Virus record (IMG/VR): IMGVR_UViG_3300028025_005178
Coordinates: 1-35,704 of that record
Reading direction: 5' to 3' (one strand)
Source: a virus
Length of the DNA: 35,704 nt
Below, piece by piece: positions 816-19,900 of the stretch. Position 1 is the first letter of the stretch, and each line of letters starts with the position of its first letter. The position numbers and the translations under genes were made by a program. The notes under the pieces are model-generated. The model was not told the DNA's origin. It worked only from the letters and a program-made list of their open reading frames with translations, and ran no database searches.

Positions 816-3530
816 TCACTTACCTGAGCGTGATGGTGATACTTGTACGGGGATTGGAATCATTGTTAGGGTCAACGCTGTTCCAGCAATCAGAACACGC
901 CTGGTACTCACTGGAATACTGGAGCCGAGCGGAATATATGTATCAACATTTCCTGCAGCAAAAATATTGATTTCCTCTTCAAATGCTTCCTTAACTTCTG
1001 TTGGGGCATCCTGTACGGCCTCAACTAGCGCAGCAGCCTCAGCATCCGAGATATCGTCAATCGGAACAGTGGCAAAAATTTCGGAAGCCTGGTCGCCCGT
1101 AATTGACTCCAACACCTCACCACTTGTAGCAATACTTACTGACTGCTCTTCAGAAAGGCCGTTCTCAATAATGGCGTCAACTGCAGCAACGACCTGCTCA
1201 TCGCTAACACTCTCGCCACCCAAGACATCAACCAACTCATCAAACGCTGCATCAGAAATCGGCTCATCCAAAATGGCATCAATAACAGAATCAAATGCTT
1301 CGTCGCTTAATGACTCTTCAAAGATAGTGTCAAGAACTTCGGCAAATGCCTCATCACTGATGTCGGCGGTAAATACCTGGTCCACGACAGCGGCAATTTC
1401 TTCATCTGACAAATCTTCGGCGAATACAGTACTTACGAGTTCGGCAAGCGCCTCGTCAGACAAGTCTTGACTAAAAACCTCATCAATGACTGCAATAAAT
1501 TTCTCTGTGTCAAGGTCTGATGTTAGGAGTTCAGTAGCAACACTGACTAGTTCCTCTTCCGACTCTGTTGCAGCCAATGCTTCACCAACAGCGTCCCCCA
1601 GTTCTTCTGGGGATGGGTCATCTGCCAGAATGTCATCAACGACTTGTTCTGATGTTTCTTCTTCTACCGGTAATTCCGGTGTTGTATCTGGCGTTTCTTC
1701 TTCTGGGGCTGATTCAGGTACGGTTGTTTCGGGTGACGTTGTGTCTTCGGAATTTCCGGTTCCTCCATCAGTGCCTCCATCAGTAGTATCTGGGGTTGTA
1801 TCTATTGTATCTTCTGGCTCTGTATCGGGAGGAAAAGTAACTGGAAGTTCAGTTGTTGTTGGTTCTTCCGTTTCTAGCACTTCCGTTGTTGTGGTAGTTG
1901 GAGACTCGGTTGTTGTGGTAGGAACTTCCGTCGTGGTCGTAGTCGAAACTTCAGTTGTCGTTGTTGTAGGGACTTCGGTTGTGGTTGTTGTGGGTGCTTC
2001 TGTTGTGGTAGTGGTTGGAGGGGGTGGGACGATATTGCTTGATTGAATGAATGGTGTGCCCTCGCTTGAAGGGGTTGCAATTAGATTCAGATTTGTAGAA
2101 CCGTCCCACTGGGAATAGGTGACCCATGTTCCATTTTCATCCCAAATATTATTTGAAATTGTTGATGCTGATTGATTCCTTTGGCCGTTGTTCCAGCCGT
2201 CATATAAGTTGATGGCAATCGTATTCCCCGTAAAGGTATTCCCATTAATTATTCGGTTATCTGTCCCCATATTCCAACCAAAAGGAATCCATGCTGAATG
2301 ATAAATGGCAGTTCCGTTATTGGTAAATACAGAATTAATAATTTGTGTTCTATTTAATCCAGTAACATTAGCGCCAGTTCCTGAGTTATTGGTAAATGTA
2401 GAGTCAATAACTTTTGTGAATCTATAGTTATAGATGCCATGGGTATTATTTTCAAAAGTGCCACGAGTTACATAAGTGCGGTTCTGGAAGATAGAATCAT
2501 CTGTAGTCGACCACGAGGTAAGCCCAGCATCCAATTGAGGCGTGGAGCCATAATCGCCAGCAATTCCTATTGATAGAGAATCCCACGTAGAATCCGTATA
2601 GTAGGCAATGGCACCGCCGTTATTGTTAAAGACTGCACTACCACCAGTCATACTCGTGAAACGAACATTATTGGCCGTGACAGTCCCACGATTATTGTAG
2701 ATAAGACCACCATTGGCATTTTGTCCACGCTTCAACGTCAAGTCGCTGACTGTTAAAGAAATATTATTATTCACATTAAAGATGCGGAATTGACTATCAC
2801 CATCAATGACTGTCGAAGTTTTTCCGCTTCCGACAATAGTTACATTTTGTGTGATGTTTGGAAGTGCGCTAGCAAGCGTGATAGTCCCTGCGGGAATTTG
2901 AATTGAGTCATAGATTCCACCAGATGTACCATTTGCTTGGGTTATTGCCCAACGTAGCGTTCCAACAGAGCCATCATCTAGAAAACTCGTAACCACTAGT
3001 GATGTCGGTTGCGTAACTACTGTTAGCGATGCGTTCCTAATTGCTGGCCCATAACATCCAGCCCAAAATAGTGAATCTTTACCAGCAAATGTGATTGTGA
3101 CAACTTCATCGTTTTGTGTTGTGGTTACCCCTAAATTGGACACCTGATTTGTACCTGCGGTTAGCACCCCTGTTGTTGCAGACTCATTTGAGTCGGAAAC
3201 CGTCGCACTATATGTCCCGCCCCATGGACCATTCGCAAGAAATGAAAGTTCTAGTGCTGATGGAGACGGAATAGTGACTTGCTGAGATACAGAATTCTGA
3301 ATATAACTAAAAGTGAGTTGCGATTGACCATCCCAAACTCCAAGACTAGGAACTCCATTGGAGCAAGAACTGCCCCCACTCGCTCCACTCCAGCCACCAC
3401 CGTTGGCTGAAAAATCACCATTTACCAATAGGTTTTCAGATGTAGCAAGAACTCCGGCAGGTGCGAACCAGCCGAATAATGCGACAACCCAAAATATCCA
3501 TTGCCCTTTGCGGGCGCCCCTTTTTCTCAT
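816..3530 (-). CDS. Secreted host-like surface protein: beta-helix, Thr/Pro/Glu linker, acidic repeats, C-terminal hydrophobic anchor
   Basis: 904 residues. A positively charged start and hydrophobic core (about 1-29, ending AGVLATS) form a signal peptide, rare among phage structural proteins. Residues about 33-172 resemble a jelly-roll binding module (opens NLLVNGDFS). Residues about 178-500 start with a CSLREAI-like motif (GSVGTLRWAITQANG) and continue as Asn-rich parallel beta-helix rungs. Residues 501-610 are a mucin-like linker of TTTTTE units. Residues about 627-850 hold acidic helical repeats built on SDEAFAEVLDTIF-type units. The end (about 851-904) has a YIPLGSSIPVSTRR motif and a hydrophobic stretch, IAGTALTLTMIPI. 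This architecture resembles cell-surface proteins of planktonic actinobacteria rather than a virion part. It lies directly before the lysis genes. A -10-like TATAAT occurs upstream; the ribosome site is weak (GGTG). Likely role: displayed on the infected cell, for example surface change or superinfection exclusion (inference). A virion adhesin is the alternative. Confidence 0.75.
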   Translation of the reverse strand: MRKRGARKGQWIFWVVALFGWFAPAGVLATSENLLVNGDFSANGGGWSGASGGSSCSNGVPSLGVWDGQSQLTFSYIQNSVSQQVTIPSPSALELSFLANGPWGGTYSATVSDSNESATTGVLTAGTNQVSNLGVTTTQNDEVVTITFAGKDSLFWAGCYGPAIRNASLTVVTQPTSLVVTSFLDDGSVGTLRWAITQANGTSGGIYDSIQIPAGTITLASALPNITQNVTIVGSGKTSTVIDGDSQFRIFNVNNNISLTVSDLTLKRGQNANGGLIYNNRGTVTANNVRFTSMTGGSAVFNNNGGAIAYYTDSTWDSLSIGIAGDYGSTPQLDAGLTSWSTTDDSIFQNRTYVTRGTFENNTHGIYNYRFTKVIDSTFTNNSGTGANVTGLNRTQIINSVFTNNGTAIYHSAWIPFGWNMGTDNRIINGNTFTGNTIAINLYDGWNNGQRNQSASTISNNIWDENGTWVTYSQWDGSTNLNLIATPSSEGTPFIQSSNIVPPPPTTTTTEAPTTTTTEVPTTTTTEVSTTTTTEVPTTTTESPTTTTTEVLETEEPTTTELPVTFPPDTEPEDTIDTTPDTTDGGTDGGTGNSEDTTSPETTVPESAPEEETPDTTPELPVEEETSEQVVDDILADDPSPEELGDAVGEALAATESEEELVSVATELLTSDLDTEKFIAVIDEVFSQDLSDEALAELVSTVFAEDLSDEEIAAVVDQVFTADISDEAFAEVLDTIFEESLSDEAFDSVIDAILDEPISDAAFDELVDVLGGESVSDEQVVAAVDAIIENGLSEEQSVSIATSGEVLESITGDQASEIFATVPIDDISDAEAAALVEAVQDAPTEVKEAFEEEINIFAAGNVDTYIPLGSSIPVSTRRVLIAGTALTLTMIPIPVQVSPSRSGK

Positions 3531-6611: not shown

Positions 6612-7391
6612 TCAGATACCTAAACCAAATTTGTCATCAAGAAAAGTCCGGTACTTCTCGGCAATAATCCCGACATTTTCTTGAATCAAAGCATTATGTT
6701 GCCGCTGAGCAGTCTTGGGCGATATGTGCTGCTTATATATCATTTTCGGTATATGTAAGCATTTGGTCGCCAAGAATGTTCGGACACACAAATCGTAATC
6801 ATCAGCCACTTTAAGATTCCAGTCATGCCCGTTGAGGGCACGATAAACGTCCGCCCGCCAAGCCCGAACATGATTGGGAGCAGAAACGATATGTCGCATG
6901 GTGACAGTATTTAGTTCTGGCGCACGCATAGTCCAAACGCCGTGCTCCTTGTCCCAATAGTCGCTGCCGTACCCAAAGGCCCAACCGTCTGGATAGCGCC
7001 CTGACTGCCCATCTGGGAGGATTTCGCACCAGTCGGAGTAAACAAACCCTACATCAGGATTCTGATTAAACGCATCACTAATAAGTTGGAGGGCATCAGG
7101 AGTTAACTCATCGTCATGGTCGAACTCAACCAAAATATCGCCCTTAGCAACCATGAAACCATTCCGCTTCACCTCGCCAATGGACCCCGAATGAACATGA
7201 GAACGATGCATCTGAATCTTGTACCGCTCATCGGAACAAAAGCCATACAACTGACGCCACGTCTCATTATTCGTTGAATCATCCCAAACAACCCACTCCC
7301 AATCCCTGAAAGTCTGAGACCTCAACGAACCCCAACTACGAGCAAGGATTTCCTGAGGGGTGTTATACGTCGGCGTAATAATAGAAATCAT
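6612..7391 (-). CDS. Family 2 (GT-A) glycosyltransferase
   Basis: 259 residues. The N-terminus (ISIITPTYNTP) is the classic GT2 nucleotide-sugar-binding strand. EFDHDDELTPDAL at about 89-101 carries the metal-binding DxD-type motif (DHDD, 91-94). ADDYDLCVR (about 196-204) is a plausible catalytic-base region. No membrane segment is visible, so it should be a soluble enzyme moving one sugar from a nucleotide donor to an unknown acceptor. It is the last gene of the enzyme island and overlaps the upstream small membrane-protein gene by 4 bases (ATGA). Phage GT2 enzymes are known to modify host glycans, DNA bases or proteins. Here the fibre-gene neighbourhood favours glycan or protein modification (inference). 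Confidence 0.85.
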   Translation of the reverse strand: MISIITPTYNTPQEILARSWGSLRSQTFRDWEWVVWDDSTNNETWRQLYGFCSDERYKIQMHRSHVHSGSIGEVKRNGFMVAKGDILVEFDHDDELTPDALQLISDAFNQNPDVGFVYSDWCEILPDGQSGRYPDGWAFGYGSDYWDKEHGVWTMRAPELNTVTMRHIVSAPNHVRAWRADVYRALNGHDWNLKVADDYDLCVRTFLATKCLHIPKMIYKQHISPKTAQRQHNALIQENVGIIAEKYRTFLDDKFGLGI

Positions 7392-7684
7392 ACGAAATGT
7401 TTTATAATTGAAGCAGTCGCCAAGGTAACCCAGGCAACGTTAAACAAAATGATAGTTGGTAGTGTTTTCTTTGTCGATGACCAAATCAAGCAAACGCTGG
7501 AAATGATGGCGAAAATATACACCCACCACCACTGCTTGTCAAAAAGAAGGCCGGGGAAAATGATGGCAATTTTTGTTGCAAAACCCCATGCCTCAACAAT
7601 ATTGGGTCGATTCCAATATTCTTTTTTAGACATTGTTTTAACAGCATCAAGTATTTTCTGATTAAATTGAATGATTTTATTCAT
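7388..7684 (-). CDS. Small membrane protein, three predicted helices
   Basis: 98 residues. A polar N-terminus (about 1-30) precedes three hydrophobic segments at about 33-48, 52-68 and 74-93, separated by KQWWW and SSTKKT. It overlaps both neighbours by 4 bases (ATGA), so it is translationally coupled within the island. I do not recognise the family. It could anchor the adjacent glycosyltransferase or its lipid-linked donor at the membrane, or move a small molecule. A second holin is less likely, because it lies far from the lysis genes and has a long soluble N-terminus. Confidence 0.6.
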   Translation of the reverse strand: MNKIIQFNQKILDAVKTMSKKEYWNRPNIVEAWGFATKIAIIFPGLLFDKQWWWVYIFAIISSVCLIWSSTKKTLPTIILFNVAWVTLATASIIKHFV

Positions 7685-8304
7685 GTGCCTTTGATTCCAT
7701 TCTTTTTCTGATACTCATGTCTAGCACGGGCAACTTCATGCAAGTGGGACGGACCCTTGGTAAAATACCAATGTTCTGGTTCGGCAAAATGAAAGAAAAT
7801 CATTTGCACTTCATTGTTTGCTGGGTCAGGGAAACTTTCGCGCCAATGGTATTGGTCCTCACCGTAATAACAAACTGCCTGATTTGGTTCTGGCAACATT
7901 TTTTGTTCTTCAACATGGATGGGCCACTGTGTTTTATATGAAACACACAAATCCATCGTATATGTACAGGCATTATCATCAACATGGTATGGGAGTTGAG
8001 CCCTAAAACCACGATAGGTAACCCATAGACAGTAAGTAGGTTTTAATGTTGGAGTGAATGTAGACCGGGCTTTATCTAATAAAATTTGATGATATTCCGG
8101 AAGTGGCGATTCAATTTTATCCATACTATTTATGCCAAATCTACCCAAAGATGGCTCATAGGAAATAACTTTGGTTTCTTGCAGTAAAGATAAATCTTCA
8201 TTCAATTTACTAAATACAGATGGCTCAAAAACTTCATCAACAATGAATGCTGGAGGTCTTTTATATAAAGTCCGATTCGTTATCGGGTCATAATAGGTGT
8301 TCAT
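7681..8304 (-). CDS. Divergent 2OG-Fe(II) oxygenase-like protein
   Basis: I place the start at the ATG at 8302-8304 (207 residues, MNTYYDPITN). A TTG start at 8328 would lengthen the overlap with the previous gene to 41 bases, and GGGAAG sits upstream of this ATG. Residues 107-109 (HVD) match the HxD iron motif of 2-oxoglutarate oxygenases. H153 in YHWRESF is a likely third ligand and R155 a possible 2OG contact. The spacing and surrounding strands (TYTMDLCVSY, AVCYYG, VQMIFFHF) suit a double-stranded beta-helix. The usual Lys/Arg ten residues after the distal His is not clear, so this member is divergent. It directly follows a prolyl-4-hydroxylase-like gene and precedes the membrane protein. 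Confidence 0.6.
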   Translation of the reverse strand: MNTYYDPITNRTLYKRPPAFIVDEVFEPSVFSKLNEDLSLLQETKVISYEPSLGRFGINSMDKIESPLPEYHQILLDKARSTFTPTLKPTYCLWVTYRGFRAQLPYHVDDNACTYTMDLCVSYKTQWPIHVEEQKMLPEPNQAVCYYGEDQYHWRESFPDPANNEVQMIFFHFAEPEHWYFTKGPSHLHEVARARHEYQKKNGIKGT

Positions 8305-8974
8305 TACCCAAAGACTTCCCGTCATCAATCATGTCAAGAGGTTGATTTTCGCTATTTTCTAATATAAATGTACTAACAATCCATTTATCATTTGAAATTG
8401 GCACACACCCTTGATGCGGATGTGTCCAATACGCAGGAAATAACGCTATTGACCCTGCTTTAGCGGGTACATAAATGTCTTGTTCGCGAAAATATGTTTC
8501 CCCACCAACTTCGACGTCATTGAGATAAACGACAGCGCCGAGAACACGATTCAAGATAACAACAGGAACCGGCCCGCCGTCAATATGCTCTCTGTAAAAG
8601 CCTTCACCACGGATGTATCTTTGCATGCGAAATCCCGTATCACAAATGCCCACCCAGTCCCAGAGCCACCTGAATTGTTCACGATAATATCCAACAGAAG
8701 TAAAGATAGCCTTTGAAAGTTCCATTTCATATGTAGACAATGGCTCTGGTGGAATGTTGTTATTTATTAGATTCTCTTTTGACCAACTGAAATCCATTGT
8801 ACTTTTAACATTAGCCATCACACCACTGATGACTGGGCCCGGTATAAACAGTCTCTCATAATATTTTGAAGATTCATCAATAATTGAAGAACATAATTCT
8901 TTGCTTAAAATATTTTCAGCAACCATAATGGCTGAAGATTTCCCTGCAGGCCAAGAAAATTGGATGGTCATCAT
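8288..8974 (-). CDS. Prolyl-4-hydroxylase-like 2OG-Fe(II) oxygenase (copy A)
   Basis: 228 residues. The C-terminal half carries the full P4Hc signature: FRMQRYIRGEGF, then HID (H130, D132), VVYLNDVEVGGETYF, PAKAGSIALFP, a distal His in THPHQG (H185 or H187) and K197 (DKWIVSTF) for 2-oxoglutarate. These enzymes hydroxylate proline or other residues using O2, Fe(II) and 2-oxoglutarate. A paralogous oxygenase is encoded at 12594-13184. Both follow closely behind a tiny protein of one family (79 and 82 residues), so the tiny protein plus oxygenase unit seems duplicated. The substrate is not visible; the collagen-like fibre of the same phage is an attractive candidate (inference). Confidence 0.85.
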   Translation of the reverse strand: MMTIQFSWPAGKSSAIMVAENILSKELCSSIIDESSKYYERLFIPGPVISGVMANVKSTMDFSWSKENLINNNIPPEPLSTYEMELSKAIFTSVGYYREQFRWLWDWVGICDTGFRMQRYIRGEGFYREHIDGGPVPVVILNRVLGAVVYLNDVEVGGETYFREQDIYVPAKAGSIALFPAYWTHPHQGCVPISNDKWIVSTFILENSENQPLDMIDDGKSLGNEHLL

Positions 8975-8986
8975 AGACCTTTCAGT

Positions 8987-9226
8987 TTAATTTTGAGATA
9001 AAAACTTTTCGTAGACATTAAGAATGTCTCGTAGGTGAAGTTGGGCGGTGTCACTGTAGGCGGCATTTGAAAAATCTGGTTGCCAAGTAAAAGAGCCATC
9101 AACTAACTCTAGGTCATCGGGGTCCACTCCTGCAAGTAGGACGGCGGTAAACAATTCTGTTTCTAAACGGCGGCGTGCAGTCTCTCTAGCAATAATTTTT
9201 TGGTTTTCTGTAATATTGAATTCCAT
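8987..9226 (-). CDS. Tiny acidic protein preceding oxygenase copy A
   Basis: 79 residues. It has an N-terminal basic helix (TARRRLETELFTAVLLAG), a DPDDLELVDG turn and a C-terminal helix (LRDILNVYEKFL). It aligns with the 82-residue protein at 13186-13434: LETELFTAVLLAGVDPDDLE vs FKEQLFGSMVAAGLDPDLVD. Each lies immediately upstream of a P4H-like oxygenase. The ribosome site GAGG precedes the ATG. No known domain was recognised. It may be an adaptor or substrate-recognition partner, or even the peptide substrate of the enzyme (inference from the repeated pairing). Confidence 0.6.
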   Translation of the reverse strand: MEFNITENQKIIARETARRRLETELFTAVLLAGVDPDDLELVDGSFTWQPDFSNAAYSDTAQLHLRDILNVYEKFLSQN

Positions 9227-9235
9227 ATTAGAACC

Positions 9236-10051
9236 TCAGTCATCTCGTCTCATTATTTTATCAATAAATGTTTTCTTTTGCGTGGCCAACTCGGAATCAA
9301 CATCTCTTTGCATTTTTTTGTATTTACTTTTTTGTCTTTTAGGCATAAAGCCACCGCCGAATCCTCTATGTTTCAGAAGATTATAGGCATTTGTATCGCC
9401 CCATAATAGTTCGGATTCTTTAGTTCTCTTGAATGGAATTACGTGCCACATAGGGCGTCCTATTTCAAGTTCAAAAGGCTCATTAGTTAATACATTAATC
9501 ACCATATGCGCATTATGATAATAATCCGTATTAACTACCGCAGGTAGCATCGTATAATTTGGGTTAGGGTCCCAAAGCGGAGGGAGAAATAAAGAGGACC
9601 AACCTGGAGGGGTTTTTATTAACCAAGGGTTAATGACTTTAATGTAGTTCGATTCTTGGAGTTTTCGTGCTCTCGTAACAGGACATTCGCCTGTTTGTGA
9701 ATACATGAAACTTTCAATACCAAAGTCTCCTAAATCAGTAACTAAATCAAATCTAGCATCCCAGTTTTTCCCATTTAAAGATGGACGAATCATCAACTTT
9801 GCCCACAGGGGGATAGTGAAACCTGTTGCAAGATAATCTGAAGTACCAGAACATCTCTTAAGGCTCCCATCGGAACCACTCAATTCTTTCCACCACTCAG
9901 GCCAATTCCCAGCATTGGTATATGGACGACATGAATCATCCATTAAATTAGGGTCAACGCAAGAAAGAAATACTTGATTTTTCTTTAATTTTGGTAAATC
10001 ATAAAAAATGTCTGGTTTAACTATTTGCAGTTTTTCTGAGCGCTTCCGCAT
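9236..10051 (-). CDS. DUF6065-like protein of unknown function
   Basis: I prefer the ATG at 10049-10051 (271 residues, MRKRSEKLQIVKPDIF). A GTG at 10117 would overlap the halogenase gene by 101 bases and has no ribosome site. The middle and C-terminal parts contain KTPPGWSSLFLPPLWDPNP, then AVVNTDYYHNAHMVINVLTN and EIGRPMWHVIPFKR. This order (PPG.S.LF.PP, VV(N/D)TD.Y, G.P..(Q/H)(V/I)IPFKR) matches an uncharacterised beta-rich family that I recall as DUF6065, found in bacteria and large phages. The last 40 residues are Lys/Arg rich (KRQKSKYKKMQR). It overlaps the halogenase gene and probably works with it. Its reaction is unknown. Confidence 0.6.
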   Translation of the reverse strand: MRKRSEKLQIVKPDIFYDLPKLKKNQVFLSCVDPNLMDDSCRPYTNAGNWPEWWKELSGSDGSLKRCSGTSDYLATGFTIPLWAKLMIRPSLNGKNWDARFDLVTDLGDFGIESFMYSQTGECPVTRARKLQESNYIKVINPWLIKTPPGWSSLFLPPLWDPNPNYTMLPAVVNTDYYHNAHMVINVLTNEPFELEIGRPMWHVIPFKRTKESELLWGDTNAYNLLKHRGFGGGFMPKRQKSKYKKMQRDVDSELATQKKTFIDKIMRRDD

Positions 10052-11492
10052 GGTCCACCAATTTCTGGTTAATGAGTTCCGATGATATTTGTGAAATATT
10101 CTTTCTAGAAGATTCACGGGAATTGTATGCTTCTAATTGTATTGATGCAACTTCTTTATTAAGCACTCCCTGACCTTGGGCTACGTGCCATAAATGTGCT
10201 GGACCGAATAGTTCAAATCCCGTTGAAGGTATGTCATGATGTTCTGGACATCTGGTATTCCATAGTTCAAGCAGATGCTGCAGTAATGGTGGTTTTTCTG
10301 CTTTTTGCTGTTCCGCCCACATCGGAGTGTCATTTCTGTCTGAAATATAGTGAAGTGAAATCATGCAAAGAATATTTTCCATAATAGAATCCATGACACG
10401 ATGATATTCTTTAATCCCATATGTTCTTTCACGCGATAATGTTGGAAGATATGAGCAAATAAGGCGAGCCTGCTGAATTGTAGTAGAAATTGATGTTGCT
10501 TCAAGCGGTTCAACAAACCCTGCAGCCAATCCAACTGCAACACAATTATTTTTCCATGTGGTTTTAAAATATCCTGACTTAAAATCAAGCGTTTTTGCTG
10601 GCTCTACTTCAAATCCATGAATTTCCGAAGCCTCTTTAATTGCTTCATCTACCGAGCAAAAGTCTGAAGAAAAAACATAACCGTTACCGCGGCGTTTTTG
10701 GGTTGGAATTTCCCACATCCAACCATTTTTTAATGCTCTCGCACGTGTGTATGGGCGTATCTGGCCTGATGGGTCAGATGGTGTTGGGAAAGCGATTGCG
10801 CTATCGCACGGAAGATATTTGCGATATGAAACAAAATCATTTTCAGAAATTTTGCTCAATATTTCACGACTAAATCCTGTTGCGTCAATAAAAAAGTCGC
10901 CGTCAATAACATCTTCAGAAGAATTAATTTTTATGTGCTGAATAAAGCCATATTCATCGACGCTAACATCATTTACGTCTGCGTCAATAAAATGAATTTT
11001 TCTTTCTTTTCCAATTTTAGTTAAATATCCGTTTAATTTGAAAGTATCAAAATGATATTGGTTTGTTCCAAAGTGCGTTTTATCTCCAGAATCAATGATT
11101 TTATTATCCACCAAACCACGCCAAGAAAAAGTACTTGTTAACGGCCAGCCATTTTCTAATGCATGTGCGTAGCCGCCCCAAAATGTTCCCGCACTTAAGC
11201 CCGTTCCACCAACACTATGGAAATAGTCTGGTGTGTGATTCGTCCAGTTTTCGTATCTAATCCCATATTTGTGCGTAATGTCAGCATGTTTAATCATTTC
11301 GTGAACATCTATACCAATAGCATCTTGGAAATGGCGCCAATGTTCTGTTGAACCTTCACCTACACCTACGATGCCTTTTTTACTAGAAGAAACAACAGTG
11401 ACTTCATAATTTTTGAAGTAATTTTTGATAATAAGTGCTGTGACGAGCCCTGCAGTACCAGAACCAATGACTACTATTTTTTTTCGGTTCAT
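10017..11492 (-). CDS. Flavin-dependent tryptophan-halogenase-family protein
   Basis: 491 residues, close to the usual 500-540. Residues 6-20 (IVVIGSGTAGLVTAL) are the FAD-binding GxGxxG motif. The halogenase signature WxWxIP is present as WMWEIP at 258-263. K75 in THKYGIRYENW sits where the catalytic lysine (K79 of PrnA) is expected, and E331 in FVEPLEATSI matches the active-site glutamate region. FIDATGFSR (201-209) is another FAD-binding segment. These enzymes use FADH2, O2 and halide to chlorinate or brominate tryptophan, free or in peptides and natural products. No partner flavin reductase is seen here, so the host would supply FADH2. It overlaps the upstream Rossmann-like gene by 4 bases. 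Such genes have been reported in some T4-like cyanophages, but the phage substrate is not known to me. Confidence 0.85.
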   Translation of the reverse strand: MNRKKIVVIGSGTAGLVTALIIKNYFKNYEVTVVSSSKKGIVGVGEGSTEHWRHFQDAIGIDVHEMIKHADITHKYGIRYENWTNHTPDYFHSVGGTGLSAGTFWGGYAHALENGWPLTSTFSWRGLVDNKIIDSGDKTHFGTNQYHFDTFKLNGYLTKIGKERKIHFIDADVNDVSVDEYGFIQHIKINSSEDVIDGDFFIDATGFSREILSKISENDFVSYRKYLPCDSAIAFPTPSDPSGQIRPYTRARALKNGWMWEIPTQKRRGNGYVFSSDFCSVDEAIKEASEIHGFEVEPAKTLDFKSGYFKTTWKNNCVAVGLAAGFVEPLEATSISTTIQQARLICSYLPTLSRERTYGIKEYHRVMDSIMENILCMISLHYISDRNDTPMWAEQQKAEKPPLLQHLLELWNTRCPEHHDIPSTGFELFGPAHLWHVAQGQGVLNKEVASIQLEAYNSRESSRKNISQISSELINQKLVDHAEALRKTANS

Positions 11493-12184
11493 TTTTTGAC
11501 CACAAATGTGAAACCTGTTGCTACGGGAATATGAAATAGGTATTTGTCATCATCTTCAGCGAGGCGCGACAAATACTGGAAATAGGGGTGCTTATTCTTT
11601 AATGAGTACAGTGAACCAAAGTCATTGACAATATTGAGAATCATCAAAGCACCCGAAGGCAGTTTGGCCCATACATTGTCAATGATTAAAAAATCATGAC
11701 TAACCATTTCGACATCAATGAGTGCCAAATCGTAATCTTCGTCAATGTCCCCATTAACAAAATTCTCCATAGAGATTACTTTTTCTTCCGGCAGAATAGT
11801 ATTCGTATATTTTTCCATATAATCAACACTCATGGTGTTCACATAATGAACCGTCGGAACAATATCGCCAAGCGTTGACGCTAGAATATAATTCATCCCA
11901 TAAAAAATAACTTTTGATGGGTTTTTAATTCGTACAGCAATTTCCACAATAGAGCGCGTCAATACTTCAATGTCCATGGCAGAACTAGATGCATCACTAA
12001 TTTGGTCTAGCCAATTTAGTTGGACTGAATAGCCAATTGCTGAACGATTTCTGTCAACGTCAGTCGCTATTTCGGACTGCAAGAACTGCGCATTGCTCGC
12101 AACAATGGCTGCCTTATCAATGTCCGAAGAAACAGTATGTGAAAGCAAGTTAGCCATTTGGAAAACACTATAATTATCATTCAT
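11489..12184 (-). CDS. Rossmann-like protein, possibly a degenerate SAM-dependent methyltransferase
   Basis: 231 residues. The central order resembles a class I methyltransferase: a strand and loop VIFYGMNYILASTLGDIVP (about 92-110), a second strand VHYVNTMSVDYME, then DYDLALIDVEM (motif IV-like), SGALMILNIVND and a C-terminal FHIPVATGFTFVVKK. The glycine-rich motif I (GxGxG) is missing, replaced by YGMNYILAS, so SAM binding is doubtful. The N-terminal 90 residues look helical. It overlaps the gene before it by 8 bases and the halogenase by 4. It may be an inactive or divergent transferase helping the halogenase reaction. The assignment is tentative. Confidence 0.45.
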   Translation of the reverse strand: MNDNYSVFQMANLLSHTVSSDIDKAAIVASNAQFLQSEIATDVDRNRSAIGYSVQLNWLDQISDASSSAMDIEVLTRSIVEIAVRIKNPSKVIFYGMNYILASTLGDIVPTVHYVNTMSVDYMEKYTNTILPEEKVISMENFVNGDIDEDYDLALIDVEMVSHDFLIIDNVWAKLPSGALMILNIVNDFGSLYSLKNKHPYFQYLSRLAEDDDKYLFHIPVATGFTFVVKK

Positions 12185-12446
12185 TGTCTAGTCTCCATTT
12201 AAGAACATGGAAAAGATACCAAAACCTTCTTAATGATTGTTGATGTCTACGTAATTCTGCGTGCCGCTCAACTGCAATGGGGGAATCTGGGTCATGACTA
12301 GCGGTTCCAAAAACATTACTACAAGACTCCATGAGGTCATCCAGGGTTAGATTTTGAATATCTGCCAAGTCAATGCCGATTGTTACAGCAATCGTCGCTA
12401 GTTGTTCTTGAACATAGTCAAAGTCATTCTGTAAGTTATAACCCAT
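12177..12446 (-). CDS. Small helical protein of unknown function
   Basis: I choose the ATG at 12444-12446 (89 residues, MGYNLQNDF) because AGGAT lies just upstream; a TTG at 12461 is the alternative. It is likely all helical: a first helix about 6-28, a segment DLADIQNLTLDDLMESC, and a basic C-terminal helix (RHAELRRHQQSLRRFWYLFHVLKWR). It overlaps the tiny upstream gene by 11 bases and the Rossmann-like gene by 8. No family was recognised. Its size and position recall the other tiny proteins of the island that sit beside enzymes. Confidence 0.55.
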   Translation of the reverse strand: MGYNLQNDFDYVQEQLATIAVTIGIDLADIQNLTLDDLMESCSNVFGTASHDPDSPIAVERHAELRRHQQSLRRFWYLFHVLKWRLDNE

Positions 12447-12597
12447 TGTTTTTATCCTCAATCACAAAAACTATAGGCTGGTCAAGCATTGCGCAGGAAA
12501 CAATACTTTCGTCATTTTCTTTATATCGGCCTGTAGTTAAATCAAAATTAGCATCAATAATTTGTTCAACATTGGATTCTTCAGGTTCTGGTGTCAT
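12436..12597 (-). CDS. Tiny acidic protein, 53 residues
   Basis: The frame from the ATG at 12595-12597 to the TAA at 12436-12438 encodes 53 residues: MTPEPEESNVEQIIDANF, then a middle YKENDESIVSCAMLDQPIVF and an end VIEDKNNGL. The ATG overlaps the TGA of oxygenase copy B (ATGA), the same coupling used elsewhere in the operon, and the gene fills what would otherwise be a 147-base gap. The protein is strongly acidic with one cysteine. No family was recognised. It could be a peptide substrate or partner of a neighbouring enzyme (inference). Confidence 0.55.
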   Translation of the reverse strand: MTPEPEESNVEQIIDANFDLTTGRYKENDESIVSCAMLDQPIVFVIEDKNNGL

Positions 12598-13184
12598 TGG
12601 AACCACGTCACTAAAGAATATTTAACAGTGTCGTCCTTTTCCCCCACAGGTTCAGCAATATGCAAATACGGGTAATTAGAAGGGAACATAATAACGCTTC
12701 CTGCTCTTGGTTCAATATTTACATTAAAACGAGGGAATACAAGATTACCGCCAGTAAAATCGTCGTTCAGAAAAGCAACGAGACTCAAACTACGTGAATT
12801 ATTTCTGAAATGGTCATGATGAGCATGATACTCGGCACCACCGCCATACTTAAGTACACGGTACCCCTCATCCATTTCTAAGTCCAACTCAAAAACATGC
12901 CTGTAATCCCAAACAATTGGGTCAATCTTTTCCCAAATTTTTTGCCACTCAGAAGCAAGTGGCATAACTCTCTCAATAGAAATTTCATTAGAACCAAGAG
13001 GCATCAATTCGCACCCCATTGATGTTCTTGTATTAGAAATTTGTCCTTCGCCAGTGGCAGACTTTTCCCATCGTACATATCCCCAATCCTGAGAACATTC
13101 CTCTTCTAAGAGTTCAATAAAATTCCCAGCATCAAAAATATTGTCGTATTGGCAAATGCCAACGGCATGTTCTTTAAATTTCAT
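12594..13184 (-). CDS. Prolyl-4-hydroxylase-like 2OG-Fe(II) oxygenase (copy B)
   Basis: The ATG at 13182-13184 is taken as the start (196 residues), one base after the previous stop; a TTG at 13217 would overlap that gene by 32 bases. The C-terminal half shows YRVLKYGGGAEYHAHHDHF with HxD ligands H122 and D124. It continues with SLVAFLNDDFTGGNLVFP, PRAGSVIMFPSNYPYLH with distal H175, and K188 in VKYSLVTWF for 2-oxoglutarate. All catalytic residues are present. It resembles copy A in fold and in its upstream tiny protein, but sequence identity looks low. Likely hydroxylates a protein or small-molecule substrate made by the phage or host. Confidence 0.85.
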   Translation of the reverse strand: MKFKEHAVGICQYDNIFDAGNFIELLEEECSQDWGYVRWEKSATGEGQISNTRTSMGCELMPLGSNEISIERVMPLASEWQKIWEKIDPIVWDYRHVFELDLEMDEGYRVLKYGGGAEYHAHHDHFRNNSRSLSLVAFLNDDFTGGNLVFPRFNVNIEPRAGSVIMFPSNYPYLHIAEPVGEKDDTVKYSLVTWFQ

Positions 13185-13185
13185 G

Positions 13186-13434
13186 TCATCCAACGATTCT
13201 TTCGCGGATTTCCTCAATTTTTTCTAATGCCTCCAGAGTGCGGGTAATTTGTTCCCGCCAACCAGAGTTTTCTTCAGAAATGTCTGTTTCTGGATTAAAA
13301 GTTTCCATATCAACCAAATCTGGGTCTAATCCTGCAGCGACCATACTTCCAAACAACTGTTCCTTGAAACCTGCTGCTCGTACTTCAATCGCTTGCAATT
13401 TGCGTTCATTTGTTAAAGAATCAAAAAAACTCAT
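13186..13434 (-). CDS. Tiny acidic protein preceding oxygenase copy B
   Basis: 82 residues, paralogous to the 79-residue protein at 8987-9226. Shared features are an N-terminal basic helix, a LF..(V/L).AG(L/V)DPD core, an acidic F-containing middle, and a C-terminal helix (ITRTLEALEKIEEIRERI). A strong ribosome site (AAAGGAG) precedes the ATG, better than those of its neighbours, so it may be made in larger amounts. It ends one base before oxygenase copy B. The function is unknown; the paired arrangement suggests a partner of the enzyme. Confidence 0.65.
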   Translation of the reverse strand: MSFFDSLTNERKLQAIEVRAAGFKEQLFGSMVAAGLDPDLVDMETFNPETDISEENSGWREQITRTLEALEKIEEIRERIVG

Positions 13435-13436
13435 TG

Positions 13437-13883
13437 TTATCTCCTTTGTCCATCGTGTACCATAACTTCATTCTTGCATATTTCTATGTCGTCGCGCATG
13501 GTTATGACAATATATTTTCCTGATTTAAGAAATCTATGTTTGACGACAACGCGATGTTCTTCTATTACTTCTGGAGCCATCTCGCCTACAACTCGCACAA
13601 TATAATCATCATTATCTATTTCTACGAGACGAAACTTAACTTCTTTACATGACTCAAAATCATCAACAAAAATAAAAACAAAAAGTTCATTTGTGCCAAT
13701 TTGAGGACTGTAGTCCACGTATTTTTCAATTGGGATAGAAAGCAAAGTCACTTGAGAATCATCAAAATCTAAAGTTTCTGTTCTTTGGGAATGCCCATTT
13801 AGTATTGGGAGCATCCATGAACGAGCAAGTTTTGACGCTTCTTCAATCATTGATTCATCTGGGCAAAAAACTACGCGGTCCAC
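13437..13883 (-). CDS. Unknown protein, first gene of the enzyme island
   Basis: 148 residues from a GTG that overlaps the TAG of the His-rich protein gene by one base. No good ribosome site is visible, so it probably depends on coupled translation. The N-terminal 30 residues look helical (ESMIEEASKLARSWMLPIL). The rest alternates strands and acidic turns (NELFVFIFVDDF, VKFRLVEIDNDDYIVRVVGEM, HRVVVKHRFLKSGKYIVITM), consistent with a single small beta domain. Composition is acidic and unlike the Gly/Ser/Thr-rich fibre proteins upstream. No family was recognised. An ATG at codon 12 is a possible later start. Confidence 0.55.
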   Translation of the reverse strand: MDRVVFCPDESMIEEASKLARSWMLPILNGHSQRTETLDFDDSQVTLLSIPIEKYVDYSPQIGTNELFVFIFVDDFESCKEVKFRLVEIDNDDYIVRVVGEMAPEVIEEHRVVVKHRFLKSGKYIVITMRDDIEICKNEVMVHDGQRR

Positions 13884-15628
13884 TAAATATCGATTGCTTT
13901 CGTATATGGGAAGTTGCTGTGGCTCATCTGTGTGTTGGCTGTTCCGGCGTTGCGTGCAATGATGATAACACCACCATCGCTACCTGTGACACCGGTCCCA
14001 CCAGCATTTGCTGTTCCTGCTGTTCCCCCCGCACCAGCAGCGCCACCAGGTCCACCAGGCCAGTTCGGATGTGGGGTTGCGGATGGGTTGGCTAGGGCGT
14101 TAGAGCCGGTGAGTCCAGCATTGTGGTTCGCTGCAGGAAACGTGAAGTATCCAGCGTTATGGAATGATGGATGTGCCGTTGAGTTGGATGAATAATATAT
14201 GTAGGCTGGGTTTGCTGGGGATGTCCATGGCCCAGCATTAGCAGGTGAGGTTCCTGCTGGTTGAGTATGTGAGCCAGAGTTATGTCCTGTGTTTCCGGCA
14301 TGATGTCCGTGCCCGGAGTTGTGATTTCCTCCGTGATGTGATGCTGGGTGGGCGTGATGTCCGTGTCCAGAGTTGTGATTTCCACCATGATGACCAGCGG
14401 GGTGATGATGATATCCGTGCCCAGCATTATGATTTTTGCTTGGGTTTGCGGTACCGTTATGATTACTAAAACCGCGAGAACCATTTGCGGCGTGCGAGCC
14501 GTGGGTATTTCCTGCGCCATGATGAGTTGCATTGGATGTTGCATTATGATTCGACCAATAAACATGCGTATTAGGGTTGTGAGCACTATGGTGACTACCT
14601 GCGGCCTGGTGCGTAGCATTCGACGTGGCGTTATGGTTTGAAAAGTTGTGCGAGTTAGGGTTGTGTGCGCCCGTGGCAGCGTTACTGTATGGGGTAGCCG
14701 AATGTGGTGCAATTGTGAGAAAACTATCCGAGGGATGATGGAATGTTCCTTGGTTATGAGATGCGGGAGCCACAGTTCCTGTCGTATGTCCATACACTGG
14801 TGCGCTACCAGCGGGGTGGGGATGGTTTCCAGAAGGGTGTCCTCCGGCGTTATGGCTCGCAGGACGTGTTGGTGCGGTTGTTCCTACACTACCAGCAGAA
14901 CCAGGATTTCCGGAAGTAGCAGGGTTTCCGGACGAACCTGCAAGCCCCCTACTTAAAATTGAACCAGACCCAGCCACAGTTTTAGCAACAATGACAACTA
15001 GTCCACCACCAAGACCGCCCGCACCACCAGTTCCCGCAGTAGCCGCATTACCAGAACTTCCAGAACTTCCAGAGTTTCCAATACCGCCAGCCTGACCTGC
15101 GGTCGCTCCAGGGAAAATACCTAGAGGGCCAGCGCTACCAGCACCACCAGCACCACCAGTGCCAGCATTGGCACTAATTGTTCCAGCATTGCCCGTGGCC
15201 CCAAGTGAGCCTGAACCAATTTTCGTTCTTGTGCCATCCGCGGTAATAAACCATCCCGCCATTGCGTCATCTAAGTCATTCAACGCCGTACTACTAATAG
15301 CACCAGTACTTGCTCCCCATGCGTTTGCTGGGTTCAAAGAACTTTGGCGCCCTGCGATAGTTCCACTTCCATCAGAAACGTTTGCTGAGGTAGCAGCAGG
15401 GAAACCTATTGTTCCATTATTGGTTAAGGTGTCTTTGACGAAAACACGAAAACCGTTGGTAAATAGTGTTGCCCCAGAGTTGACAGTTAGTGACGAGTAG
15501 TACATATCTCTGGTCATGTGCGTGACTGTAGGGCTAGTAATAGTGACAGAACCATCTTGGCCATTACCAAAAATGGAATCTCCACCGGTCCTCTGAACTA
15601 AGGATTTATTTAGTCGTCTGATTCCCAT
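13883..15628 (-). CDS. Glycine-rich tail protein with a long histidine-rich insert
   Basis: Start at the ATG at 15626-15628 (581 residues, MGIRRLNKSL) with AGGTGG upstream; a longer frame from 15700 would overlap the previous gene by 71 bases. The N-terminal domain (TRDMYYSSLTV, NGFRVFVKDTLTNNGTIG) is paralogous to the 256-residue protein upstream. A Gly/Ser/Ala region follows (GGAGGLGGGLVVIVAK). Residues about 258-519 hold roughly 47 histidines in HN, HH, HGH and HNxGH contexts, with a tandem HHGGNHNSGHGHHA unit. The protein returns to a Gly-rich end (GGPGGAAGAGGTAG, DGGVIIIARNAG). Gly-rich phage adhesins of the gp38 type pack polyglycine helices with variable loops; the His region may bind metal ions or be an extended loop. 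Virion adhesin or tip is the likely role. Confidence 0.7.
   Translation of the reverse strand: MGIRRLNKSLVQRTGGDSIFGNGQDGSVTITSPTVTHMTRDMYYSSLTVNSGATLFTNGFRVFVKDTLTNNGTIGFPAATSANVSDGSGTIAGRQSSLNPANAWGASTGAISSTALNDLDDAMAGWFITADGTRTKIGSGSLGATGNAGTISANAGTGGAGGAGSAGPLGIFPGATAGQAGGIGNSGSSGSSGNAATAGTGGAGGLGGGLVVIVAKTVAGSGSILSRGLAGSSGNPATSGNPGSAGSVGTTAPTRPASHNAGGHPSGNHPHPAGSAPVYGHTTGTVAPASHNQGTFHHPSDSFLTIAPHSATPYSNAATGAHNPNSHNFSNHNATSNATHQAAGSHHSAHNPNTHVYWSNHNATSNATHHGAGNTHGSHAANGSRGFSNHNGTANPSKNHNAGHGYHHHPAGHHGGNHNSGHGHHAHPASHHGGNHNSGHGHHAGNTGHNSGSHTQPAGTSPANAGPWTSPANPAYIYYSSNSTAHPSFHNAGYFTFPAANHNAGLTGSNALANPSATPHPNWPGGPGGAAGAGGTAGTANAGGTGVTGSDGGVIIIARNAGTANTQMSHSNFPYTKAIDI
14072..14857 (-). repeat. 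Histidine/asparagine/glycine-rich low-complexity coding repeat
   Basis: This stretch encodes about 262 residues with roughly 47 histidines in short recurring units. It includes a tandem copy of HHGGNHNSGHGHHA (about 14296-14391) and repeated SNHNATSNATH units (about 14505-14650). The plus strand shows imperfect recurring GTGATGTCCGTG and CAGAGTTGTGATT motifs. It interrupts an otherwise Gly-rich adhesin whose shorter paralogue lacks it. Confidence 0.75.
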
Positions 15629-15629
15629 T

Positions 15630-16400
15630 TTACGCCACCTGAGAATATATAAATGTTCCCGAAGCACACCCAGTGCCACCTGTGCCATCATATGAAACAC
15701 CTGCGTTTAGTGTTGAAGCCGATGAGATGACTATCATCACACCCCCACCACCTCCACCAGCGCCAGCAGTTCCAGGCGCTTTGATATATCCAGTACCGCT
15801 AGTTACAGTAATATATCTTGCGGCAAGAATCACTACCCCGCCCCCTGCTCCAGAAGCGCCCCCTGCTCCACCACGCAAAAATGTTGGCGTTGTTGATGTT
15901 CCAGTGATTGAGTAGCCGCGAACTGATTGAAACGGCTGGTAGTAATAGTTTGTTCCACCCGTTGCTGCAGTTGGTGCGGTCGCAGTCTGTGTTGCGCTTG
16001 ACCCACCAAGACTATGAGTAACCGCAGTTGCGGTAGCGCCACCCTGCTGTATTGACCCAGCAGTAGAAAAACCAGTCGTGTATCCAATGGTTGAAGCATT
16101 ACCCAGCGTCAGTATATTTTGGACAAAGATGCGGTATCCGCCTGGATTGAGTCGAACGCTATCCGAAAGTGTGAGGTTATAGAAAAATAGGTCCCTTGTT
16201 GCAGTGTAAACAGAAGATGAGGGAGCCATACTGAGAATAGTAGTCGTGCCATCAAGTGTCTGGGTGCCATCAACGGCAGAACCATATATGGGGTCTGGGG
16301 CGTCAAGAAATGCAGTTAAGTTGGAGTTCGCTTTTGACGTTGTTGATGGTCCAGAGGCAACGCTCAGGCCACCTCCATTCGTAAAAATGAACTTACCCAT
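15630..16400 (-). CDS. Glycine-rich tail protein, paralogue of the following gene
   Basis: 256 residues. The middle (TRDLFFYNLTLSDSVRLN, GGYRIFVQNILTLGNASTIG) aligns with TRDMYYSSLTV and NGFRVFVKDTLTNNGTIG of the next protein. Then come Gly-rich segments (RGGAGGASGAGGGVVILAA, GAGGGGGGVMIVISS) and a short tail with one cysteine (GCASGTFIYSQVA). The match pattern suggests a beta-helix-like or polyglycine-sandwich fibre protein. The ribosome site AAGGAT precedes the ATG. The following gene begins one base after this stop. It is probably a shorter version of the same adhesin, without the His-rich insert. Confidence 0.7.
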   Translation of the reverse strand: MGKFIFTNGGGLSVASGPSTTSKANSNLTAFLDAPDPIYGSAVDGTQTLDGTTTILSMAPSSSVYTATRDLFFYNLTLSDSVRLNPGGYRIFVQNILTLGNASTIGYTTGFSTAGSIQQGGATATAVTHSLGGSSATQTATAPTAATGGTNYYYQPFQSVRGYSITGTSTTPTFLRGGAGGASGAGGGVVILAARYITVTSGTGYIKAPGTAGAGGGGGGVMIVISSASTLNAGVSYDGTGGTGCASGTFIYSQVA

Positions 16401-16986: not shown

Positions 16987-19900
16987 TCAATTTGTGTAGC
17001 CGTAAAGTTTCCAAGAACCTGAAATTGTTGTGGCGCTTGCTCCAAGACGGAAGTTGGAGAATGCAATTCCGTTATAGGAACTTAGTCCGCTATGTATTAA
17101 TGTCCCAGTGTAATTGCCGAACGTTGAGGCATTATGCGAACTAATAGTTGTGGTATCGGCAAGAAATGGTCTGCATATTTCTAGAGCAACATGACCGTCG
17201 GAAAATGCAATTGTGCCGACGACTCCGAGTGTCGAATTCGCACCAACATAGTTGTCTGTGGAACCGCCATAAGTCAAACCATTCATTGCATAGTAGTAAC
17301 CAGCCCCTGCAGGAGTACTACCAGATAGTAAATCAACAAAGAATAAGTAAAGATTGGCACTTGCTCCTTGAAGGTTGGAAATAACAAGTCTGTAGTTATC
17401 GTAAGTTGAACTAAATACCGATGTTATGTTTGCTGTTGTAACACCAGAGAACGTTCCACTATTCAAAAAGACAAGACCAACGTCGGCAGTTGTTGCGACA
17501 GTCCCTGCTTTGTTCGGTAGCGTCAATGTTCTATCTGCTGTAAGTGTTGTTGGCGTTAAAGTTACTTCATAAGTACTGGTTCCACCTGCACGACCAGCAA
17601 GCGCAACACCATCCTGGGTTGCCGCAGTACGCACTGTGGCAGTACCGATAACATCTAAAGTTGTTGCTGGGTTGATGGTCCCAATGCCTACACGATTATT
17701 ACTGGTATCAGTTTTGAAAGTACTTGTACCACTAGCAATGGAGCCAATAACGGTTAGTGTGCTTAGGTTTCCAACACTAGTAATTGCTGTTTGAGCAGCA
17801 CCAGTAACGGTTGCGGCAGTGCCTGACACGTTGCCTGTTACATTTCCCGTTAATGGACCAGAGAATCCCGCTGCCGTTAGTGTTGTTCCATTGAATGTTA
17901 AGTTGGCACTACCTGCTGCAGCATTGGTCCCATCTTTGTAAACAACTTGGTTGGCGCTTCCAGCAACAGGTCCGGTAGCACCTTGGGCTCCAGTTGCCCC
18001 TTGCGGACCTTGGGCTCCAGTTGAGCCTTGTGGACCTACATCTCCTTGCGGACCCTGCGCACCTGTAGAACCCTGCGGACCAGTTGCACCCTGAGCACCC
18101 TGGACTCCTTGCGCTCCAATGTCTCCTGTCCGGGCAAAGGTAACAATGATGCTTTCGTTGTTACTAAATGATGATGCCGAACCTGAAACATACGAACAAG
18201 AAACATCAAAGAAGCCTGTTTCTTCCGTAACAGCAGAAATGGTGAACACTGCAAAGTCTAAAGAATCGCCCTTATTGGAGATTCGGAAGTGGCCCTTGAT
18301 AGTGCTTGTTGAGTCGTCAATTGTTCTTAGGTACGACTGAATATCTGTTGAGTTTGCGTCAACGTCATCAATCTTAAGTTCTGTAGCAAGTGTTATGTCA
18401 GAGTTGCTGAACTTGAGTTTTCCAGCACCTGGGTCCGTATGTGCCGTATCGGTATTAAAGACGTACTCAAAAGTGACACCGCCAAAGTTTCCTTGCGCAC
18501 CTTGCGGTCCTGTGAAACCTTGTGTGCCTTGAGGTCCTTGTGCACCCGTGAATCCTTGAGTTCCTTGAGGTCCTGTAAAACCTTGAGTACCTTGTGGACC
18601 CGTGTCTCCTTGTGCTCCTTGAGCCCCCTGAGCACCTTGAGCACCAGTAAATCCCTGTGCTCCTTGTGCACCTTGTGAGCCTTGGGGGCCGGTATCTCCT
18701 TGCGCTCCAGTGAAACCCTGCGTCCCTTGTGGACCAGTAAAGCCTTGAGTACCTTGTGGACCAGTAAAGCCTTGAGTACCTTGTGGACCTGTGTCTCCCT
18801 GTGAGCCTTGAGAACCTTGGGCACCTTGAGCACCCTGGGAACCAGCAGTTCCTTGAGCACCCTGTGCTCCTTGTACTCCCTGCGGACCAGTAAAACCTTG
18901 CGCACCCTGCGAACCCTGCGGTCCAGTCTCCCCTTGTGCGCCCTGCGCCCCCTGTGAGCCTTGTGGGCCTGTATAACCCTGGGAACCTTGGGGACCGGCG
19001 AAACCCTGAGTTCCTTGGGGTCCTTGCGCACCCTGAGGTCCTGTATAACCCTGGGAACCTTGGGCACCCTGCGAACCCTGGGGACCAGTATCACCCTGCG
19101 AACCCTGTGGACCCGTGTCACCTTGCGAGCCTTCAGCACCCTGCGGGCCAGTATTGCCTTGGGTGCCTTGCGGACCGGTGGGACCCTGAATGCCCTGCGG
19201 TCCAGTAGGTCCTTGTGCACCAACATCACCTGTACGAGCAAAAGTAATAATGACATCAGCGTTGTCGCTAAAAGTCGTGACGGAACCAGATACATAACTA
19301 CAATTAACGTCAAAGTATCCTGTTTGTTCAGTTATTGAAGAGATAGTGAATAAAACAAAGTTTGCTGAATTAGTTTTTTCGGAAACTCTAAAGTGTCCTT
19401 TTATGGAACTTGTTGAATCATCGATTGTGCGTAAATATGACTGAATGTCTGTTGCATTGTCATCTTGGTCGTCGATGTAAAGAATTGTTGCTGAGGCAAA
19501 AATGCCATCATTGAATTTTAGTGTCCCTACTCCGGGGTCGGTTTGACTGGCATCTGTATCGAATGTATAGTCGAATGTGACACCACCAAAGTTTCCTTGG
19601 GCACCTTGCGCTCCAGTGAAACCCTGAGGACCCGTTGCGCCTTGTGCACCTTGTGAACCCTGGGGTCCTGTATCGCCCTGAGCGCCAGTGAAACCTTGAG
19701 TGCCTTGGGGGCCTGTAAAACCTTGTGTGCCTTGGGGGCCTGTAAATCCTTGTGCGCCCTGACTTCCTTGAGCACCTTGCGCTCCTTGTGGTCCAGTAGA
19801 ACCCTGCGCACCTTGAGGACCCGTAACCGTACTAGCCGCACCAACAGCGCCCTGTGGCCCAGTAGAACCCTGTGCACCTTGAGGACCCGTCAAGCCTGTA

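Follow-up and report, generated by a model that had tools for sequence, protein, structure and literature searches.

A halogenase and oxygenase gene cassette linked to a histidine-rich tail adhesin in uncultured aquatic phages: a candidate system for adhesin tailoring

Gene content of the cassette

The window analysed here, the whole 35.7 kb of the uncultured virus record IMGVR_UViG_3300028025_005178, carries within its tail-fibre region genes for a flavin-dependent halogenase, 2-oxoglutarate (2OG)-Fe(II) oxygenases and a DUF6065-type protein; these adjoin the gene for a tail adhesin rich in glycine and histidine. On the minus strand, baseplate and fibre genes are followed by a collagen-like fibre, p256, the Gly-rich adhesin, the 13 genes of the cassette and then further fibre genes (Table 1). 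All 13 cassette genes described by the first-pass annotation of this DNA are present between 6612 and 13883; they are closely packed, with junctions of -35 to +12 nt, and therefore look translationally coupled. Scans for promoters and terminators gave signals no commoner than chance. The relevant unit reaches past 13883 to approximately 16400, taking in the adhesin and its short paralogue.

The annotation had also named a halogenase, two prolyl 4-hydroxylase (P4H)-like oxygenases and a family 2 glycosyltransferase (GT2), and the Pfam matches bear all four out. Read from its sequence, the halogenase is full length with its catalytic residues intact: it has the FAD motif GSGTAG at residue 10, Lys75, WMWEIP at 258 and VEPLE with Glu331, and these positions were aligned with those of solved tryptophan halogenases. 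On the same kind of reading, OxyA and OxyB are P4H-like 2OG-Fe(II) oxygenases with intact catalytic residues. A third, divergent oxygenase had been suggested for oxyC, and this is probable: H107, D109, H153 and R155, an HxD...H arrangement followed by Arg, are invariant in an alignment of 17 relatives, and the protein matches a phage family, although it has no Pfam match and a profile comparison that would have made it a clear OxyA homologue gave none either. Support for the proposed Rossmann-like protein amounts to weak, scattered methyltransferase matches in single relatives. The profiles of the small acidic proteins acid79 and acid82 each pick up both groups.

Table 1. Features of the cassette and its surroundings in the window. 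Fractions of 59 refer to non-redundant halogenase loci with at least 5.5 kb of flank on each side; ORF, open reading frame.
Feature	Position	Strand	Remarks
Collagen-like fibre	16987-21090	-	PF01391, 1e-79
p256, short paralogue of adhesin	15630..16400	-	Same N-terminal domain, Gly-rich end, lacks His region
Gly-rich tail adhesin	13883..15628	-	ATG at 15628 is the likely start; listed ORF, 13883-15700
His-rich variable region of adhesin	14114..14860	-	46 His in 249 residues
p148, small protein	13437..13883	-	Predicted Ig-like beta-sandwich; recurrent in cassettes
acid82, small acidic protein	13186..13434	-	Directly downstream of adhesin/p148; resembles acid79
oxyA, P4H-like 2OG-Fe(II) oxygenase	12594..13217	-	PF13640, E=5.5e-15; HxD...H...K
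sm56, small ORF	12436..12606	-	Overlaps neighbours; kept in close relatives
acid94, small acidic protein	12177..12461	-	Kept in close relatives
Rossmann/methyltransferase-like protein	11489..12184	-	Accessory; near 17/59 halogenase loci
Flavin-dependent halogenase	10017..11492	-	PF04820, E=4.3e-102, 342.8 bits (cut-off 21), residues 5-449
DUF6065-type protein	9236..10051	-	Predicted dUTPase fold; likely start 10051; 35 nt overlap with halogenase
acid79, small acidic protein	8987..9226	-	Resembles acid82
oxyB, P4H-like 2OG-Fe(II) oxygenase	8288..8974	-	PF13640, 2.1e-8; phrog_61, 1.8e-26; HxD...H...K
oxyC, probable third oxygenase	7681..8304	-	phrog_2954, E=2.7e-11 (phage family labelled 'ferrochelatase')
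TM98, small apparently membrane-bound protein	7388..7684	-	Accessory; hydrophobic sequence; near 38/59 halogenase loci
GT2 glycosyltransferase	6612..7391	-	PF00535, E=1.6e-16; accessory, position mobile; near 8/59 halogenase loci

The assignment of a DUF6065-type protein was upheld in part: the window protein itself has no PF19541 match, whereas 5 of 36 aligned relatives do (best E=4.6e-6), and three of the 36 match the dUTPase family PF00692. Its AlphaFold model (pLDDT 86, pTM 0.82) was compared by Foldseek and VIA-align, and the PDB matches listed belong to the dUTPase superfamily (Foldseek 8.7e-5; VIA Z up to 9.9 over 120 residues); the sequence profile also reaches dUTPases, weakly. The monomer is predicted to have the fold of trimeric dUTPases. 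When the dUTPase motifs AGYDL, RSG, GVIDxDYRG, GDRIAQ and GGFGSTG were sought by eye in the alignment, two traces were seen, an Asp that is invariant within (H/N)TD(Y/F)Y, which resembles motif III, and an RGFG resembling motif V, but an RSG-like motif II was not recognisable. In this the protein differs from the trimeric enzymes, and it has not been filed as a dUTPase. Relatives in haloviruses and a cyanophage adjoin ribonucleotide reductase (RNR) or thymidylate synthase genes, which makes a nucleotide role likely there. A haloviral homologue near a 'glycine-rich adhesin' was considered as independent support for a link to adhesins and dropped, because the gene sits where tail and replication genes meet, next to thymidylate synthase or RNR. 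We note that the contig of locus L314 holds a second DUF6065-type copy with two in-frame stops (G008:C1:6121-6825), probably a decaying paralogue. The AlphaFold model of p148 (pLDDT 93) predicts an immunoglobulin (Ig)-like sandwich, and its Foldseek matches are mostly antibody variable domains with low TM scores.

Linkage to the tail adhesin across viral loci

With the best 80 matches kept per search, the halogenase query returned 79 viral loci, and the closer of these show the complete gene set with its order unchanged. Searching in reverse from p256, a non-enzyme, gave 45 loci; where enough sequence follows downstream, they also have the adhesin, oxygenases, halogenase and DUF6065 gene. The DUF6065 family, used as a third query, led to the same set. 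Recurrence of the gene set in dozens of other contigs argues that it is not a product of chance. Among the 59 counted loci, p256 is nearby in 49, p148 in 38, an acid79/acid82-type gene in 38 and a DUF6065 gene in 51; in most of these 51 the DUF6065 gene overlaps or directly adjoins that of the halogenase. The adhesin is found in 49 of the 51 halogenase loci with DUF6065 but in 0/8 of those without it (Fisher p=2e-8), and adhesin and oxygenase are both present in 48 of the 51. Searches of eight large contigs found no psbA and no T4-like capsid gene (PF07068), the control for the latter being likewise without a match, so that the missing capsid gene carries no information.

This linkage is not simply an inherited gene order, since it survives reordering, strand inversion and duplication. 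In five loci (L162, L166, L167, L169 and L190) the p256-adhesin pair has the enzymes on its other flank; L170 has halogenase and DUF6065 genes in exchanged positions, with the adhesin encoded on the opposite strand; and one phage has two complete adhesin-oxygenase-halogenase-DUF6065 cassettes in tandem (L175:4932-20747).

The first-pass annotation had read the genes as a possible tail-fibre or surface modification system and had suggested searching viral neighbourhoods for these families beside collagen-like fibres. The enzyme families do co-occur with a tail protein, and almost obligately; the constant partner is the Gly/His-rich adhesin with its short paralogue, not the collagen-like fibre, for which an ORF with (GXX)>=10 was found in only 26/51 of the halogenase loci with DUF6065, a count that the available flanks limit. 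Nor can glycosylation, which had been counted as part of the system, be retained as a core step, the position of GT2 shifting in the few loci that have it. The same scarcity bears on another explanation, that the targets of the enzymes during infection are the host surface or cell wall, superinfection exclusion being one conceivable purpose, and that the enzymes travel with the adhesin through a common receptor. Host-recognition genes do travel together, and the window cassette includes both the GT2 and the small apparently membrane-bound protein; however, the GT2 is not core, no export signals were seen in the core enzymes when these were judged by eye without a predictor, and the tracking of adhesin composition by the halogenase, described below, would be left unexplained. 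We consider this explanation improbable.

Adhesin composition and exchanged enzymes

In the adhesin, Gly-rich motifs flank a variable low-complexity region rich in His, Asn, Pro and Thr. The protein matches phrog_13336 (E=3e-4) and has no Pfam match; its N-terminal domain found no match among isolate phages, and a second query gave weak haloviral matches only. As a measure of His content we took the highest His count in any 120-residue window, which is 31 for the adhesin studied here. Adhesins have a median of 26.5, against a median of 4 and a 95th percentile of 11 for other long ORFs of the same loci, where most of the highest exceptions are adhesins that the strict motif did not catch.

Composition follows the enzymes. 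We compared 92 non-redundant adhesins that have the N-terminal domain in common and sufficient flank. Where a halogenase is nearby (n=70) the median is 28, and 68/70 reach at least 12 His per 120 residues; where none is nearby (n=22) the median is 2 and 0/22 do so. No PF04820 gene was found anywhere in 16 records of the halogenase-less loci. Twelve of these 22 adhesins have no cassette and are Gly-rich, His-poor and Pro-poor. The other ten have DUF6065, nine of them with oxygenases as well, and most carry Tyr/Asn repeats (NYSYGYSY, NPTNYG). Pro is higher in both oxygenase-bearing classes than in the cassette-free class. A tree of the N-terminal domain requires that the halogenase label change at least three times on well-supported branches, and in L287, nested within a halogenase-plus clade, cassette and His region are both missing.

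Sister and substituted cassettes extend this pattern. Locus L315 (9887-18456) has the adhesin, p256, a p148-like gene, two PF13640 oxygenases, two DUF6065-type genes and an oxyC relative, with an FkbM methyltransferase in place of the halogenase, and its adhesin has Tyr/Asn repeats. In L023 (6226-10872) a halogenase 56% identical to that of the window adjoins a different Gly-rich adhesin (PF21722), together with an Asp/Asn beta-hydroxylase (PF05118) and a weakly matched sulfotransferase; there is no DUF6065. These two cassettes suggest a general scheme of an adhesin, oxygenases and one interchangeable tailoring enzyme. Further sister cassettes without a halogenase and with a Tyr/Asn-repeat adhesin were seen in L284, L295, L300, L301, L304, L322 and L324.

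Two proteins elsewhere in the window may be mentioned here. A 904-amino-acid protein (816-3530) has a Thr-rich linker with TTTTTEAP repeats and ends in an acidic C-terminal part similar to one in L023; it looks like a surface protein of actinobacterial type, from which we would guess that the host may be a freshwater actinobacterium. A 1203-amino-acid protein (24047-27658) has three Lcl_C matches (PF07603) and is possibly the 'host-like surface protein' of the first-pass annotation.

A putative tailoring system and its known relatives

We propose, with a probability of roughly 0.6, that the cassette is dedicated to modifying the adjoining tail adhesin after translation. An adhesin with a Gly-rich core and a presumably receptor-facing low-complexity region would be made together with the enzymes. 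The 2OG-Fe(II) oxygenases may hydroxylate its Pro, Asn or His side chains, an action on the adhesin to which the raised Pro content of both oxygenase-bearing classes points. The halogenase would act on aromatic side chains of the variable region, with His as the leading candidate because it is the residue that specifically tracks the halogenase. Perhaps the DUF6065 protein and p148 serve as scaffold or substrate-recruiting partners, and with a modified tip the adhesin could bind its receptor differently, coordinate metal differently or change in stability. What the sequences show are the genes, intact catalytic residues in the halogenase and two of the oxygenases, the conserved linkage and the association between halogenase presence and adhesin His content; the adhesin as substrate, the residues modified and the benefit are what we infer. 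Tryptophan is unlikely as a universal halogenase target, some cassette adhesins having no Trp after the N-terminal domain. More tentatively, and at somewhat less than even odds, interchangeable phage cassettes may write His halogenation, hydroxylation of Pro, Asn or His, or in the sister cassettes methylation, onto low-complexity receptor-binding regions of adhesins whose composition co-evolves with the enzyme set; we know of no earlier case in which an enzyme halogenates a virion protein.

Several points weigh against adhesin tailoring. The adhesin tree yields only three fully independent contrasts, which puts significance out of reach, although over random pairings His changes in the same direction in 2.4 of the 3 on average and never in the opposite one. 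The tree itself is built on 74 columns and many of its forks are unresolved; two halogenase-plus adhesins have His counts of only 7 and 11; many records are fragmentary, so that absences are soft; and, to our knowledge, His halogenation by an enzyme of the tryptophan-halogenase family is not established. The association between halogenase and His is thus strong across sequences and limited in its independent replication. The scarcity of contrasts, and the origin of many loci in related phages, would also fit hitchhiking, in which genes insert at tail-fibre hot spots and the association stems from common phage ancestry with no functional interaction. Hitchhiking does not account well for partners that stay constant despite changed order, strand and copy number, for the lack of the adhesin at all eight halogenase loci without DUF6065 or for the absence of both traits in L287, and we regard it as quite unlikely.

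Another possibility is that the cassette makes or alters a small molecule, either a host metabolite or a signal, and is merely located in the tail region, the His-rich adhesin having evolved independently for metal or receptor binding. Solved halogenase homologues act on free Trp and other small aromatics, and the published proposals for such phage genes are metabolic. Tryptophan halogenases and 2OG oxygenases have been known in cyanophages since the first genomes of these phages and have been classed as metabolic genes with no clear purpose; protection from antibiotics or an altered 2-oxoglutarate or nitrogen metabolism has been guessed at (PMC2984593, PMC3037559), and a further metabolic proposal has been made (PMC10452541). 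The cassette, however, has no condensing or carrier-protein genes, and this explanation would predict neither the association with His nor a linkage to a single adhesin family that outlasts rearrangement and duplication; we consider it unlikely, while placing it ahead of the other alternatives.

The cyanophage and pelagiphage homologues (PrnA, T4-GC 212) belong to the same family as the window halogenase, isolate phages being 24-37% identical among the matches listed. The first-pass annotation had believed a phage set for hydroxylation, halogenation and glycosylation in one tail locus to be undescribed. Halogenase and 2OG oxygenase already stand side by side in public annotation, in Synechococcus phage S-SCSM2R and in Pelagibacter phage HTVC008M, where the two genes overlap; the novelty lies in the cassette tied to an adhesin and in the association of the halogenase with His content. 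In the isolates HTVC008M, S-SCSM2R, P-SSM2, S-H38 and Syn1 the halogenase lies among auxiliary metabolic, replication or head/terminase genes, and no adhesin of the window family is annotated near it in these five records. In the open-access literature, most subscription papers being outside the search, we found no article on DUF6065, none on halogenation or hydroxylation of a phage adhesin and none that links the phage halogenases or 2OG oxygenases with an adhesin.

For this group, gene neighbourhood and adhesin composition point to one particular protein as the substrate, and the question is thereby open to a direct test. Were adhesin tailoring true, phages would extend the chemistry of the receptor-binding tip past the 20 amino acids, with consequences for host range, for protein halogenation enzymes and for what DUF6065 does.

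Among known systems, VirX1 (6qgm) is a flavin-dependent halogenase of the same family as that of the window (E=3e-35). It is said to iodinate diverse substrates, and we know of no report of an adhesin role for it. Glycosylation of phage virions is known, P4H-like enzymes act on repetitive proteins, and mimivirus L230 reportedly hydroxylates and glycosylates viral collagen. The likeness here lies in virus-encoded enzymes that modify virion fibre proteins; those systems are not known to have a halogenase or dUTPase-fold partner, and the candidate substrate in the window is a Gly/His-rich adhesin rather than a collagen. In the gp38-type tail-tip adhesins of T2 and S16, Gly-rich motifs of a polyglycine II (PGII) sandwich flank hypervariable receptor-binding segments (PMC12892980). 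The window adhesin, compared by sequence layout alone, resembles them in its Gly-rich motifs around variable segments and differs in its His-rich low-complexity region, its N-terminal domain and its linked tailoring cassette. A more distant parallel is offered by the Nereis jaw proteins Nvjp-1 and Nai11527, which are Gly/His-rich and associated with zinc and halogens, Nvjp-1 being probably halogenated and cross-linked (PMC13120676). These belong to an animal biomaterial, are unrelated in sequence as far as is known and have no known dedicated flavin halogenase; as a chemical analogy only, they show that nature makes use of protein chemistry of this kind, in proteins that are Gly/His-rich, bind zinc and are probably halogenated.

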